From Streptomyces sparsogenes (GTDB taxonomy: Bacteria > Actinomycetota > Actinomycetes > Streptomycetales > Streptomycetaceae), in the NCBI RefSeq assembly GCF_001704635.1, contig NZ_MAXF01000061.1:1-64000 (forward strand): 64,000 bases of DNA. The letters are read 5' to 3'. The number at the start of each line of letters is the position of its first letter. Position 1 is the stretch's first letter. Below the pieces are notes generated by a model that was not told where the DNA came from, did no database searches, and saw nothing but the letters and a program-made list of their open reading frames with translations. Made by a program: the position numbers and the translations under genes. Below, one piece after another: positions 36,047 to 58,952 of this stretch.

Positions 36047-36067
36047 TTGTACACACCCTGTGGACAA
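36047..36067. promoter_or_regulatory. Head-to-head DnaA boxes in the dnaA promoter
   Basis: TTGTACACA (36047-36055) and TTGTCCACA on the opposite strand (36059-36067, perfect) are 3 bp apart. Paired, closely spaced DnaA boxes in this place are known in Streptomyces to mediate dnaA autorepression. Confidence 0.85.
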
Positions 36068-36194: not shown

Positions 36195-38066
36195 GTGGCT
36201 GACGTACCCGCCGATCTTGCCGCAGTGTGGCCACGCGTGCTCGAGCGGCTGCTAGGAGAGGGCGCGGGCCAGGGCGGACAAGGCGTCGAGGCCAAGGACG
36301 AGCACTGGATCAAGCGGTGCCAGCCGCTCGCTCTCGTCGCCGACACCGCGCTGCTGGCCGTGCCCAACGAATTCGCCAAGGGCGTGCTGGAGGGCAGGCT
36401 GGCCCCCATCGTCAGCGAGACGCTCAGCCGCGAGTGCGGCCGCCCGATCCGGATCGCGATCACCGTCGACGACTCCGCCGCCGAGCCCGTGGTCCCCCAG
36501 CAGCCCCAGCGCGAGACCTACGAAAGCCGCGAGACCTACGAGAACCGCGACGCCTACGACGGTTACGACGGCCGGGACGGTTACGACGGCCGGGACGGCT
36601 ACGACAAGCGGGAGGGCTACGACGGCCGGGACGGCTACGGCCGCCCGGCGGGCGACGACCTGCCGACGGCCCGCCCCGCCTACCCCGGCTATGAGCAGCA
36701 CCGGCCCGAGCCCGGCGCCTGGCCCCGGCCGCGTGACGACTACGGCTGGCAGCAGCCCCGGCTCGGCGGCTTCCCCGAAGCGGACCCGTACGCCTCACAG
36801 CGTCCCCAGCCCGGCTATGACCAGCAGCTCTACGACCACCAGCCGCACTCCGACTACCGGGGGCCGGGCGCGGAGCGGCCCGGACACGACCGGTCGCCCT
36901 ACGAGCAGCCGCGCCGGGAACTCCCCGACCCGCTCGAGCGCTCCCGCGGCGGCCCGCCGGTGCTGCCCTCGCAGACCGGCGCCCCCGGCCCGCTCGCGGC
37001 GCAGCCCGCGCCCGCGCCCGGCCCCGGCGAGCCGACCGCGCGCCTGAACCCGAAGTACCTCTTCGACACCTTCGTCATCGGCGCGTCCAACCGCTTCGCG
37101 CACGCCGCGGCGGTCGCGGTCGCCGAGGCGCCGGCCAAGGCCTACAACCCCTTGTTCATCTACGGGGAGTCCGGGCTCGGCAAGACCCACCTGCTGCACG
37201 CGATCGGGCACTACGCCCGCAGCCTCTACCCGGGGACGCGGGTGCGCTATGTGAGCTCCGAGGAGTTCACCAACGAGTTCATCAACTCCATCCGCGACGG
37301 CAAGGCGGACGCGTTCCGCAAGCGCTACCGCGACATGGACATCCTCCTCGTCGACGACATCCAGTTCCTCGCGAGCAAGGAGTCGACGCAGGAGGAGTTC
37401 TTCCACACCTTCAATACGCTGCACAACGCCAACAAGCAGATCGTGCTGTCCTCCGACCGGCCGCCCAAGCAGCTGGTCACCCTGGAGGACCGGCTCCGCA
37501 ACCGCTTCGAGTGGGGTCTGATCACCGATGTGCAGCCGCCGGAGCTGGAGACGCGCATCGCGATCCTGCGCAAGAAGGCGGTCCAGGAGCAGCTGAACGC
37601 GCCCCCCGAGGTGCTGGAGTTCATCGCCTCCCGCATCTCGCGCAACATCCGCGAGCTCGAGGGGGCGCTGATCCGGGTCACGGCCTTCGCCAGCCTCAAC
37701 CGGCAGCCGGTGGACCTCGGCCTCACCGAGATCGTGCTGAAGGACCTGATTCCCGGCGGCGAGGACGCGGCCCCGGAGATCACCGCCACCGCGATCATGG
37801 CCGCGACCGCCGACTACTTCGGGCACACGGTCGACGACCTGTGCGGGGCCTCACGCAGCCGGGTGCTGGTCACCGCGCGGCAGATCGCGATGTACCTGTG
37901 CCGAGAGCTGACCGATCTTTCCCTGCCGAAGATCGGGGCGCAGTTCGGCGGGCGGGACCATACGACCGTCATGCACGCCGACCGCAAGATCCGGGCGCTG
38001 ATGGCCGAGCGGCGTTCCATCTACAACCAGGTGACCGAGCTGACGAACCGCATCAAGAACGGCTGA
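36195..38066 (+). CDS. dnaA: Chromosomal replication initiator protein DnaA
   Basis: This 623-residue protein opens oriC and loads the helicase. Domain I (about 1-85) has [10 protein letters not shown] and the [15 protein letters not shown] region. Domain II (about 90-280) is very long and acidic/Gly/Tyr/Pro-rich, as in Streptomyces, and has DGRDGY hexapeptide repeats from residue 122. Domain III is the AAA+ motor, with Walker A GESGLGKT at 324-331 and Walker [11 protein letters not shown]. Domain IV ends with the DnaA-box-binding HTH ([19 protein letters not shown]). The GTG at 36195 has only a weak ribosome binding site, but the N-terminus [12 protein letters not shown] fits the genus. Confidence 0.98.
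36558..36642 (+). repeat. In-frame hexapeptide repeats in DnaA domain II
   Basis: About five 18-bp units encode DGRDGY or variants (one is DKREGY). They lie in the flexible linker and probably vary in number between strains. Confidence 0.8.
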
Positions 38067-38289: not shown

Positions 38290-38852
38290 TTCTCCACAGA
38301 TCCTGGGCCGATCCCCCGTCCACACCCTGGGGACACCCAGGTTGTCCCGACTGTGTCCACAGGCAGGCTCGCCGGAGCGGCATCCGGGGAGGTCAGCGGG
38401 GTGTGGAATTGTGACAATCGACAGTCCACAGACTGTGGACGACGGCGATACCCACAGAGCGGGCTCCGCGTTGTCCACCGCCCGCCCACAGCCGAGGGCC
38501 CGTAACCCACAGCTTCTCCACACCCTCATCCACTGTTCGGCAAGGAAACGGGCCCGGTCACCGGGACGAGTGAAAGGCATCACACCAACGAGCCGGGTTG
38601 GGCTGTGGGGAAGGTGGGTAAAACTGGGGACGCAGCTGGGGAGAACCGGGCCGCGCCTGTGCATCGGGTGTGCAGAACTCGGCGCCGTCCACAGAGACCC
38701 CCGGTTGTCCACCGGCGTCGCCCACAGGGCCGGTGGATAAAAAATCGCTGCTGACCTGCGAAAAGTCAGTTGTCCACGGTTTCCACAGGGCCTACTACTA
38801 CGACCACTGAGAGATAGCGGGAAACTCGCTTCGAAGTGGGGCCTGTGCACAA
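38290..38852. other. oriC: Origin of chromosomal replication (oriC)
   Basis: The dnaA-dnaN spacer (38067-38999) holds about twenty DnaA-box-like 9-mers on both strands. The best are TTGTCCACC (38471, 38705), TTGTCCACG (38770), TTCTCCACA (38290, 38514), TCGTCCACA on the minus strand (38434-38442), TTATCCACC on the minus strand (38732-38740) and TTGTGCACA on the minus strand (38844-38852). None is the perfect TTGTCCACA, so the origin relies on many weaker sites. The least GC-rich patch (GGATAAAAAATC, 38734-38745) lies between box groups and is a candidate for initial unwinding. No gene lies in the spacer. The dnaN ribosome binding site is at its right end. Confidence 0.95.
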
Positions 38853-40220: not shown

Positions 40221-41099
40221 ATGGAGCTCGGTCTCGTCGGTCTCGGCAAGATGGGCGGCAATATGCGCGAGCGCATCCGCCGCGCAGGTCACACCGTCAT
40301 CGGATACGACCGCAACCCGGACCTCGCCGACGTCCACAGCCTCGGCGACCTTGTGGACAAGCTCAAGGGACCGCGCGTGGTGTGGGTCATGGTCCCGGCG
40401 GGGGTCGCGACCCAGACCACCATCGACGAGCTGGCCGAGCTGCTGTCGCCCGGCGACATCGTGGTCGACGGCGGCAACTCCCGCTGGACCGACGACGAGA
40501 AGCACGCCGAGCAGCTCAACGCCAAGGGCATCGGCTTTGTCGACTGCGGCGTCTCCGGCGGCGTCTGGGGCCTGGAGAACGGCTACGCGCTGATGTACGG
40601 CGGCGCCGCCGAGCATGTGGCCAGGGTCCAGCCGATCTTCGACGCGCTCAAGCCCGAGGGCGAGTTCGGCTCCGTCCACGCCGGGAAGGTGGGCGCCGGC
40701 CACTTCGCGAAGATGGTCCACAACGGCATCGAGTACGCGATGATGCAGGCCTACGCCGAGGGCTGGGAGCTGCTGGAGGCCGTGGACTCGGTGGAGAACG
40801 TGCGCGAGGTCTTCCGCTCCTGGCGGGAGGGCACGGTCATCCGCTCCTGGCTGCTGGACCTGGCGGTGGGCGCCCTGGACGACGACGAGCACCTGGAGAA
40901 GCTGCGCGGCTACGCGGAGGACTCCGGCGAGGGCCGCTGGACCGTGGAGGCCGCGATCGACAAGGCCGTGCCGCTGCCCGCCATCACCGCCTCGCTCTTC
41001 GCCCGCTTCGCGTCCCGCCAGGACGACTCCCCGCAGATGAAGATGATCGCCGCGCTGCGCAACCAGTTCGGCGGCCACGCGGTCGAGAACAAGAAGTAA
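40221..41099 (+). CDS. gnd: 6-phosphogluconate dehydrogenase (decarboxylating), short form
   Basis: This 292-residue NAD(P)-dependent enzyme makes ribulose 5-phosphate in the pentose phosphate pathway. It has an N-terminal Rossmann motif ([16 protein letters not shown]), the substrate-binding [19 protein letters not shown] and the catalytic Lys region [18 protein letters not shown]. It is the short GndA/YqeC-like form rather than the roughly 470-residue type. AAAGGA precedes the ATG. Its position between dnaN and recF is conserved in Streptomyces. A perfect TTGTCCACA (minus strand, 40352-40360) lies within it. Confidence 0.94.
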
Positions 41100-56511: not shown

Positions 56512-56611
56512 GCCCGTACGGGAACTCCGCGCCCCGCCTGTCCGTCTTGACGGCAGGCAGGCGGGCACGCGGAGCCCGGTGCGAGCATGGAGTGCAGGGC
56601 AAGGGGAGACG

Positions 56612-57499
56612 ATGGAGGACCAGGCGGTCTGCTGCTACCGGCACCCGCAGCGGGAGACCGGCATAAGCTGCGTCCGCTGCGAGCGGCCGATCTGCCCGGA
56701 GTGCATGATCAGCGCCTCGGTCGGTTTCCAGTGCCCTGAGTGCGTGCGCGGCGGCGCGCCCGGCCCTTCCGGCGGCCCCGCCCCGGCCGGGCACCCGGTG
56801 CGGTCGGCGCGGCCGCGCACGATAGCGGGCGGTGCGCTCACCGCCGATCCGCGGCTGGTCACCAAGATCCTCATCGGCGTCAACGTGGCCGTGTGGTTCG
56901 TGGCGCTCGCCCTGGGTGACCGGTTCGTCAACGCCCTCGATCTGGTGGGCCGGGCGTACGACCCGGGCACCACCAGCCTGGTGGGGGTCGCCGAGGGGCA
57001 GTGGTACCGGCTGCTCACCGCGGTCTTCCTGCACCAGCAGCCCATCCACATCGCGTTCAACATGCTGTCGCTGTGGTGGCTCGGCGGACCGCTGGAGGCG
57101 GCGCTCGGCCGGGCCCGCTATCTCACGCTGTATCTGCTGTCGGGGCTCGGCGGCAGCGCGCTGTCGTATCTGCTCGCCGCGCAGAACCAGCCCTCGCTGG
57201 GCGCCTCCGGGGCGATCTTCGGCCTGCTCGGCGCGACGGCGGTCCTGATGCGCCGCCTCAACTACGACATGCGGCCGGTCATCGCGCTGCTGGTGCTGAA
57301 TCTGCTCTTCACCTTCACCTGGGCCAATATCGCCTGGCAGGCCCATGTGGGCGGGCTGGTCGTCGGCACCGTGGTGGCGTACGGGATGGTCCACGCGCCG
57401 CGGGAGCGGCGCGCGCTGGTCCAGCAGGGCACCTGCGCGCTGGCGCTGCTGGTGATCGTCGCGCTGGTGTGGATGCGGACGGTGCAGCTCACCGGCTGA
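56612..57499 (+). CDS. Rhomboid family intramembrane serine protease
   Basis: This 295-residue protein has an N-terminal zinc-binding module with Cys/His pairs (CCYRHPQRE, CVRCERPICPEC, FQCPEC). Six membrane helices follow. The rhomboid active site is complete: GASGAIFG with the catalytic Ser, and the His in the last helices (AHVGGLVVG). HIAFNMLSLWWLGGPLE is the conserved HxxxN motif region. The start at 56612 has GGGGAG upstream. The substrate is unknown. It is followed by a DnaA-box-rich spacer, then crgA on the opposite strand. Confidence 0.92.
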   Translation: MEDQAVCCYRHPQRETGISCVRCERPICPECMISASVGFQCPECVRGGAPGPSGGPAPAGHPVRSARPRTIAGGALTADPRLVTKILIGVNVAVWFVALALGDRFVNALDLVGRAYDPGTTSLVGVAEGQWYRLLTAVFLHQQPIHIAFNMLSLWWLGGPLEAALGRARYLTLYLLSGLGGSALSYLLAAQNQPSLGASGAIFGLLGATAVLMRRLNYDMRPVIALLVLNLLFTFTWANIAWQAHVGGLVVGTVVAYGMVHAPRERRALVQQGTCALALLVIVALVWMRTVQLTG

Positions 57500-57539
57500 C
57501 CGTCGGCCGTGCCGTCCCGGTGGAATATCTACAGTGCAG

Positions 57540-57753
57540 TTGTCCACAGCGAGTGGCCGATCTTGTGCAAACTGTGGAGAACATCAGTGCGGCTCCGAGC
57601 TCATCCGCGTTCTCGCAGGCAGGAGCGGGTGTGAACGGTCGAACGGATGTGCTCGGCCGATCACACCGGCGTCAATGCGGCGGAAGTTATCCACAGATCT
57701 TCTGAGTTTTCCCCGGCTGTGGATAACTCTGTGGACGACCGGGGTGTGGACGA
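57540..57753. promoter_or_regulatory. DnaA-box cluster between rhomboid and crgA
   Basis: Six 9-mers occur in 214 bp. They are TTGTCCACA (57540-57548, perfect), TTCTCCACA (minus, 57573-57581), TTATCCACA (57687-57695, perfect), TTATCCACA (minus, 57718-57726, perfect) and TCGTCCACA (minus, 57730-57738 and 57745-57753). The third and fourth are in a 12-bp inverted repeat (AGTTATCCACAG). This cluster has more perfect boxes than oriC itself. Streptomyces is known to have high-affinity DnaA-box clusters outside oriC that titrate DnaA. Equivalence is probable but not proven here. Confidence 0.8.
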
Positions 57754-57781
57754 TCGGGCGGCGAAAGCCGGAGAGCCGATC

Positions 57782-58039
57782 CTACTTCCACTGAGTGGAG
57801 ACCACGAACCCGGCGGCGATGAAGCCGAAGCCGACCACGATGTTCCAGTTGCCCAGCGACTTGACCGGCATGTCGCCGGTGGTCACATAGAACATCACGA
57901 TCCAGGCGAGACCGATCAGGAACATGGCCAGCATCAACGGCGCCACCCACCCGCGGCCGCTGCTCAGGCTGATGTTGGCGGCCTGCTTCGCCGGCGGCGG
58001 CGTGAAGTCGTCCTTCTTGCGGATCCGTGACTTCGGCAC
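57782..58039 (-). CDS. crgA: Cell division protein CrgA
   Basis: This 85-residue protein has a basic N-terminus ([16 protein letters not shown]) and two membrane helices ([19 protein letters not shown] and [17 protein letters not shown]). CrgA coordinates sporulation septation and FtsZ-ring placement in Streptomyces and is a divisome member in mycobacteria. Its 3' end lies 29 bp from the DnaA-box cluster. It is divergent from the DUF881 gene. Confidence 0.96.
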
Positions 58040-58184
58040 GAGGAACTCTCCTGTCGATGCGCTGCGTGACCGCGCTGGATGGGTACGGACGGCGCCGGTC
58101 GGGACGGGGACGGGGGACCACGCCCTTCCCTCGGGGCGTCAGTTAGCGTAGTCCTTCCGCGGCGTCGTAAGGAGTAAGGGTACG

Positions 58185-58952
58185 TTGAGCAATTCCGCCG
58201 GCACCCCCGCCCCGGGCCCTCGACGCCCCTCCTTCCGCCCCGTCCGGCTGCTGACCGCCGGGGTCTTCGCGCTCGCCGGGCTGATCTTCTGGACCAGCTT
58301 CGACACCGCCCAGGGCACCAACATCCGCAGCGACGAATCGATGCTGCGGCTGTCCGACCTCATACAGGAGCGCAGCCGCAAGAACCGCGACCTCGACAAC
58401 AGCGCCGCCCAGCTGCGCTCGCGGGTCGACGCCCTCGCCCGCCGGGACAACGGCGCCACCGACGCCGAGCGCCGCGAGCTCGCGGCGCTGGAGCGGGCCG
58501 CGGGCACCGAGAAGCTCACGGGCACGGGGCTCACCGTCACCCTCACCGACGCCCCGCCGAACGCGACGGCGAAGATCCCCGACGTGCCCGACCCGCAGCC
58601 CAACGACCTCGTCATCCACCAGCAGGACCTCCAAGCCGTGGTGAACGCGCTGTGGCAGGGCGGCGCCCGGGGGATCAAGGTCATGGACCAGCGGCTGATC
58701 TCCACCAGCGCGGTGCGCTGCGTCGGCAACACCCTGATCCTCCAGGGCCAGGTCTACTCCCCGCCGTACACGATCACCGCCGTCGGCGACCGGGGAAAGC
58801 TGCGCGCCGCGCTGGCCGCGTCCCCCGCCATCGAGAACTACCGCAGCTACGTCGAGGCGTACGGGCTCGGCTGGAAAGTCGCCCAGCACGACAGCGTGAC
58901 TCTTCCCGGCTACTCCGGCACAGTGGACCTGCACTACGCCCAGCCCCGGTGA
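58185..58952 (+). CDS. DUF881 membrane protein
   Basis: This 255-residue protein has a short basic N-terminus, one membrane helix (VRLLTAGVFALAGLIFWTS), an extracytoplasmic coiled coil (RLSDLIQERSRKNRDLDNS) and a DUF881 domain (GTGLTVTLTDAP, then NALWQGGARGIKVMDQRL). The start is TTG with GGAG upstream. Linkage crgA-DUF881-pabA-pknB is the same as mycobacterial Rv0011c-Rv0014c. Function unknown; relation to cell division is inferred from linkage. Confidence 0.88.
   Translation: MSNSAGTPAPGPRRPSFRPVRLLTAGVFALAGLIFWTSFDTAQGTNIRSDESMLRLSDLIQERSRKNRDLDNSAAQLRSRVDALARRDNGATDAERRELAALERAAGTEKLTGTGLTVTLTDAPPNATAKIPDVPDPQPNDLVIHQQDLQAVVNALWQGGARGIKVMDQRLISTSAVRCVGNTLILQGQVYSPPYTITAVGDRGKLRAALAASPAIENYRSYVEAYGLGWKVAQHDSVTLPGYSGTVDLHYAQPR

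Follow-up and report, generated by a model that had tools for sequence, protein, structure and literature searches.

A Candidate Class-Wide DnaA Control Element at the 3′ End of crgA in Streptomyces and Other Actinobacteria

The DnaA-box cluster between a rhomboid-like gene and crgA

We analyzed a 64,000-nucleotide stretch of the Streptomyces sparsogenes genome (the window; contig NZ_MAXF01000061.1, positions 1 to 64,000), in which a dense cluster of DnaA boxes separates a rhomboid-like gene from the cell division gene crgA. Both strands were scanned with TTRTCCACA, allowing at most one mismatch. The 33 matches found across the 64 kb compare with a mean of 7.2 and a maximum of 15 in 100 shuffles. 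Six of them, three perfect and three with one mismatch, fall within 214 bp (57540 to 57753); because the shuffle mean is 7.2 per 64-kb window, ~0.024 boxes would be expected by chance in a segment of this length. The scan and the open reading frames (ORFs) agree with the initial annotation, which had reported these six boxes between the two genes. Chance clustering was ruled out by the shuffles of the window, by background windows from the class, and by the background for a neighboring palindrome, both described below.

The whole cluster lies 3′ of both neighbors, since by their ORFs the rhomboid gene (plus strand) stops at 57499 and crgA (minus strand) stops at 57782. The stretch containing oriC (38290 to 38844), between dnaA (36195 to 38066, plus strand) and dnaN, holds one-mismatch boxes only, as had been claimed, and lies ~18.7 kb from the cluster, close to the ~19 kb first given. 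PMC4285127 tabulates the sequence of box C, TTGTCCACA, as the high-affinity box in both Streptomyces coelicolor and Mycobacterium tuberculosis. Coordinates of the boxes and their surroundings are collected in Table 1.

Table 1. Features of the crgA-side element and its neighbors in the window
Feature	Position	Strand	Basis
Rhomboid-like gene, 3′ end towards the element	56579..57499	+	ORF; named from its own sequence motifs alone
Spacer containing the whole element	57500..57781		ORFs; 3′ ends of rhomboid gene and crgA converge on the spacer
Box C, perfect DnaA box TTGTCCACA	57540..57548	+	TTRTCCACA scan
Weak box TTGTGCAAA, 2 mismatches, inside conserved GATCTTGTGCA block near C	57563..57571	+	Sequence reading; block kept in alignment
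One-mismatch box TTCTCCACA	57573..57581	-	TTRTCCACA scan
Palindrome-like motif corresponding in Streptomyces to the class palindrome; core TCACACCGGCGTCA, 57661-57674	57658..57677		2 mismatches to class core
Box B, perfect, TTATCCACA	57687..57695	+	Scan; B and C starts 147 bp apart
Box A, perfect, TTATCCACA, facing B, 31 bp start to start	57718..57726	-	Scan
One-mismatch box TCGTCCACA, tandem with A at 12 bp	57730..57738	-	Scan
One-mismatch box TCGTCCACA, second copy	57745..57753	-	Scan
crgA, 85 amino acids, 3′ end towards the element	57782..58039	-	ORF; homologues across genus and class

Conservation of the element in Streptomyces, its order, and the class

Named genomes were scanned with CrgA, and of at least 541 loci the 80 best-scoring were taken, a choice that biases the set towards close relatives. 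The crgA-rhomboid spacer contained at least three perfect boxes in 80/80 loci, and a single perfect box (in L071) was found outside the spacer in the entire set. In the window and in all 80 loci, box A faces box B, followed by box C pointing the same way as B. The whole element is flipped between the same two genes in L023 and L033, and its orientation relative to the genes is therefore not fixed.

Of 295 genomes in the genus, 193 matched a strict three-box pattern and none matched a reversed control pattern. We searched 80 of the 102 pattern-negative genomes for crgA, found it in 77, and read 72 loci; outside this count stand 22 unsearched genomes, 3 without a crgA match, and 5 that matched but were unread. 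A perfect A facing a perfect B was found in 71/72 of these loci, with a perfect C as well in 51. The remaining 21 comprised 16 with a short spacer and no C, 2 with a mismatch in C, 2 variants, and 1 without boxes (L197).

Distances between box starts fell into discrete groups. The 150 A-B pairs were spaced at 29 to 33, 42 to 47, or 52 to 57 bp, with one at 66 bp, and 130/134 B-C pairs were spaced at 112 to 115, 135 to 137, 145 to 150, 155 to 161, or 169 to 170 bp (single values at 180, 191, 244, and 267 bp); these counts ignore kinship, and because related genomes share values they overstate how many changes were independent. The best single spacing periods, 11.7 and 10.9 bp, are slightly above the helical repeat, and the spacing within Streptomyces shifts by about one helical turn per step. 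The alignment seemed to show one hairpin conserved between B and C, an idea that was rejected, as the best stems sit at differing places. A best stem score of ≥7 was nevertheless obtained for 33/81 B-C stretches, compared with ~6% of mononucleotide shuffles, so that secondary structure without one common stem is predicted in part of the loci.

Beyond the genus, boxes were present in the crgA 3′ spacer in 14 of 15 genomes from other genera of the order, L224 having none. Of the 197 genomes in the class set, 190 had crgA; 16 of these belong to the genus, and 124 of the other 174 were read. These 124 loci lie outside the order and represent 37 families and 80 genera; a box was scored if it had at most one mismatch and lay within the first 150 bp past the crgA stop. 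At least one box was found in 112/124 loci, at least two were found in 93, and a perfect box was found in 71, and the loci with boxes covered 34/37 families and 74/80 genera. Control frequencies were 2.7% for other 150-bp windows of the same loci (n = 2,615), 5.6% for dinucleotide shuffles, and 9/124 for the crgA 5′ flank. The initial annotation had proposed comparing rhomboid-crgA spacers among Streptomyces genomes, and the boxes proved conserved both there and across the class. Among the 34 class loci first read, 14 had no rhomboid match in the stretch read, and 12 of these 14 still carried a box within 150 bp; the element therefore follows crgA.

Spacing was also constrained in the class, with facing boxes at 10 to 11 bp and tandem boxes at 12 to 13 bp. 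A three-box core combining these distances, either way round, was found in 33/124 loci at ≤1 mismatch per box and in 87/124 at ≤2 mismatches per box, compared with 0.00 of mononucleotide shuffles. The distance from crgA to dnaA was 10 to 177 kb (median, 31 kb) in 35 of 44 genomes, the 9 omitted having dnaA at one contig end and crgA near the other, and the element was near the origin in 35/35 genomes measured.

A palindrome shared by the crgA element and whiB

The class palindrome, GAATYACACSSGTGTRATTC, adjoins the boxes at crgA. When scored as TYACACNNGTGTRA, it occurred with ≤2 mismatches in 76/124 loci (0.4% of 2,570 background windows) and with ≤3 mismatches in 97/124 (4.1% of background). 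Its Streptomyces counterpart, TTGACGCCGGTGTGAC, lies 11 bp after B in 72/81 elements and has 0 to 2 mismatches in 67/81. At ≤2 mismatches the 64 kb has two hits besides the window copy at 57661, which, taken alone, is modest evidence. A 20-bp form of the palindrome was found with ≤2 mismatches in 94/197 class genomes, at 1 to 4 places each, and the reversed control was found in 1/197 (G504).

Places away from crgA are a sample, drawn from among the matches listed, and many lie upstream of the septation gene whiB. When 38 palindrome loci were checked for the WhiB cysteine motif, 25 had a whiB orthologue and 13 did not; the 25 represent 22 distinct places in six families, and the WhiB motif starts 146 to 313 bp downstream of the palindrome. 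Most of the whiB copies have no DnaA boxes nearby. A further 24 genomes (L416 to L439) were examined separately; the core lay ≤450 bp upstream of whiB with ≤3 mismatches in 23 and with ≤2 in 8, compared with 7/60 and 0/60 background windows, respectively. The copy in the genus is degenerate, with 3 core mismatches, and reads TAATTTCACTCGTGTCGTTC or is one base off in 9/10 genomes; the source genome has its own copy at L425 (G000:C208). It is possible that the palindrome upstream of whiB orthologues represents an old regulatory site of whiB. As to the link between replication and septation suggested initially, the sequences offer indirect support, in that the boxes follow crgA class-wide and the adjacent palindrome recurs upstream of whiB.

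Published binding motifs were compared with the palindrome by eye, and none was a full fit. BldD recognizes TNAC N5 GTNA, and the palindrome has the same half-sites with N6; the motifs of BldM (TCACcCgnncGgGTGA), BldO (TGxAATTxCA), MtrA (a direct repeat), and WhiA (GACAC) were the others compared. In five genomes (L331, L344, L354, L355, and L401), the palindrome stands beside similar ORFs that are neither crgA nor whiB. In three loci of family f6 (L338, L339, and L340), it occurs without DnaA boxes near a yidC-like frame, ~4 kb from dnaA in two of the three genomes (G616 and G489).

Candidate functions of the element and other DnaA-box sites

One published mycobacterial site invites direct comparison. 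According to PMC7738170, five DnaA sites were mapped in mycobacteria, and chromatin immunoprecipitation sequencing in Mycobacterium smegmatis gave homologues of the same five. The site between Rv0010c and Rv0011c contains a palindrome of two facing box-like sequences, and DnaA binds it in vitro as well as, in M. smegmatis, in vivo; its mutants form longer cells, as do dnaA mutants there. Its authors saw no obvious correspondence in other species, and the words crgA and Streptomyces do not occur in the accessible text of that paper (PMC7738170). Rv0011c is crgA in a table of PMC3989709. Like the Streptomyces element, this site lies 3′ of crgA, near oriC, with two facing boxes; the Streptomyces boxes, however, are stronger and further apart, box C is extra, and downstream lies a rhomboid gene in convergent orientation. 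On gene position and the published description, the mycobacterial site would belong to the same family of crgA 3′ elements.

The element was also compared with the DnaA-reactivating sequences (DARS) and datA of Escherichia coli. DARS1 and DARS2 each read, start to start, as a + 14 - 12 - triple under our own assignment of boxes I to III, and PMC5742627 describes box I as opposed to II and III with equal spacing in the two loci. The class core likewise opposes one box to a tandem pair, and the tandem distance is 12 to 13 bp compared with 12 bp in DARS. The facing distance is 14 bp in DARS1 and DARS2, 10 to 11 bp in the class core, and 29 to 66 bp in Streptomyces. Since the exact DARS spacing (14 and 12 bp) occurred in 0/124 class loci and the facing gap of the core is shorter, we do not file the element as a DARS. 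datA, like the crgA element, is an intergenic cluster near but outside oriC, and the Bacillus subtilis clusters are also intergenic and outside oriC. The crgA element, however, keeps a facing pair, whereas the essential datA boxes all point in one direction (PMC5742627), an arrangement that the crgA element does not share.

Boxes kept in a fixed order, a facing pair, spacing in helical steps, and a second motif all speak for a structured nucleoprotein complex and against a loose set of boxes. We lean towards a class-wide DnaA control element that lies close to the origin and is anchored at the 3′ end of crgA; the cluster would be its Streptomyces form. DnaA would form a single structured complex over the tandem boxes and the box that faces them, and a palindrome-binding protein may modulate this complex. 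The crgA site, being copied soon after initiation, could then tune in every cycle how much DnaA is available or which nucleotide it carries. The comparisons argue strongly for a conserved DnaA control element and weakly for a DARS-like direction of its action. That direction is somewhat likelier than a sink, because the core opposes one box to a tandem pair, unlike datA, and mutants of the mycobacterial site are longer. A reactivating role is favored on the same ground, since the longer cells that follow loss of the mycobacterial site resemble not only dnaA mutants but also DARS mutants, which have raised cell mass in slow growth (PMC4585315). The bolder proposal of a DnaA-reactivating locus that is ancient and class-wide, parallel to DARS in function though not necessarily related to it, fixed to crgA, and wired through the palindrome to the regulator of whiB, strikes us as rather unlikely.

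The most serious competitor is a DnaA sink of the datA or box-cluster kind, which would bind DnaA or promote its inactivation soon after initiation and so stop new origins from refiring; we consider it a possible but doubtful account. Like datA, the element was near the origin wherever the distance was measured, and perfect boxes at crgA stand against one-mismatch boxes at oriC. PMC5742627 also cites clusters in S. coelicolor and B. subtilis as repressing untimely initiation. Simple titration, which the initial annotation had offered, is possible but by itself leaves the fixed orientation and spacing unexplained, and it requires no second motif. Moreover, no part of the crgA element varies less than the facing pair, unlike the one-way datA boxes, and cells became longer when the mycobacterial site was lost (PMC7738170), an effect that does not indicate early initiation.

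Regulation of crgA or its neighbor by DnaA together with a palindrome-binding protein seems improbable to us, even though DnaA is known elsewhere to act in transcription as a factor, whiB has the same palindrome upstream, and the mycobacterial site is 65 bp upstream of the Rv0010c start (PMC7738170). Promoter control of crgA at the window locus is unlikely, and an effect of the boxes on crgA transcription, for which the initial annotation had suggested an assay, found no support: the Streptomyces element is 3′ of both genes, is inverted in L023 and L033, and has no sigma-70-like promoter match in 57300 to 58200. The boxes also occur at 12 of the 14 class loci without a rhomboid match in the stretch read, and neither gene flanking the mycobacterial site changed expression in dnaA mutants (PMC7738170). 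Less probable still is that the inverted repeats serve chiefly as bidirectional terminators. The genes are convergent, A and B make an inverted repeat, and strong stems are enriched between B and C; the stems, however, sit at different places in different loci, and no terminator-like match was found in the window stretch. Outside Streptomyces, facing boxes often do not pair together yet remain near the DnaA consensus, and terminators would leave the same-strand tandem boxes unexplained.

Several observations weigh against the control element that we prefer. No box lay within 150 bp of the crgA stop in 12/124 class loci, families f5, f34, and f39 (4 loci) had none in that interval, and a box was found in only 3/6 loci of f27 and 4/7 of f28. 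Within the genus, the 16-locus short-spacer group kept A, B, and the palindrome and lost box C, no such boxes were found in the spacer read at L197, and kinship reduces the force of the spacing counts. The strict 20-bp form of the palindrome was found in 0/16 genus genomes, and the crgA palindrome was found in 0/16 loci of f19 and f20. The same side of the balance holds the missing exact DARS spacing, the unchanged initiation rate in mutants of the mycobacterial site (PMC7738170), and the repression of initiation cited for the S. coelicolor clusters, which favors a sink. Our literature search found no published DnaA binding at the Streptomyces crgA site.

DnaA-box clusters outside oriC are already known as a kind. 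Smulczyk-Krawczyszyn (2006) reportedly described the clusters H69, H24, and D78 near oriC in one species, S. coelicolor, and is said not to have covered class-wide conservation, a common core, or the palindrome. H69 may be this crgA site if crgA lies on cosmid H69. As far as our searches show, it is new that the element is anchored at crgA across the class, that its loci have a three-box core in common, that the palindrome recurs at whiB, and that the mycobacterial site can be placed in this family; the literature search, with most subscription papers outside its reach, found no paper tying the site to crgA across actinobacteria. If the preferred reading is correct, the mycobacterial DnaA site, a recurrent target of mutation in clinical strains, gains an evolutionary family and, in Streptomyces, a harmless model, and DnaA control outside oriC in actinobacteria becomes testable. 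It would also point to a palindrome-binding factor common to the crgA site and whiB; under the bolder proposal above, one factor would govern both replication initiation and septation.

The window contains further DnaA-box sites. A second cluster at 2718 to 2806, with two perfect boxes (2718 and 2798) and two one-mismatch boxes, lies upstream of dnaB (minus strand) and has a MATE-type gene on its other flank. Regions upstream of dnaB were parsed in 29 of 31 cases (28 genomes and the window), and at least one box was present in 29/29 and at least two were present in 27, compared with background values of 9/116 and 0/116. The palindrome was found at the dnaB-upstream cluster in 0/29 parsed regions; outside this set, G531 has one weak copy upstream of dnaB. 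This cluster matches the Rv0057/dnaB site published for mycobacteria. At 36047 to 36067, a short way upstream of dnaA (36195), a perfect box (36059) and a one-mismatch box face each other and are likely a dnaA autoregulatory site. The window is likely to have counterparts of four of the five mycobacterial sites, namely, oriC, the dnaA-upstream site, the dnaB-upstream site, and the crgA element. A lone perfect TTGTCCACA box lies just 3′ of dnaN (40352 to 40360, minus strand).
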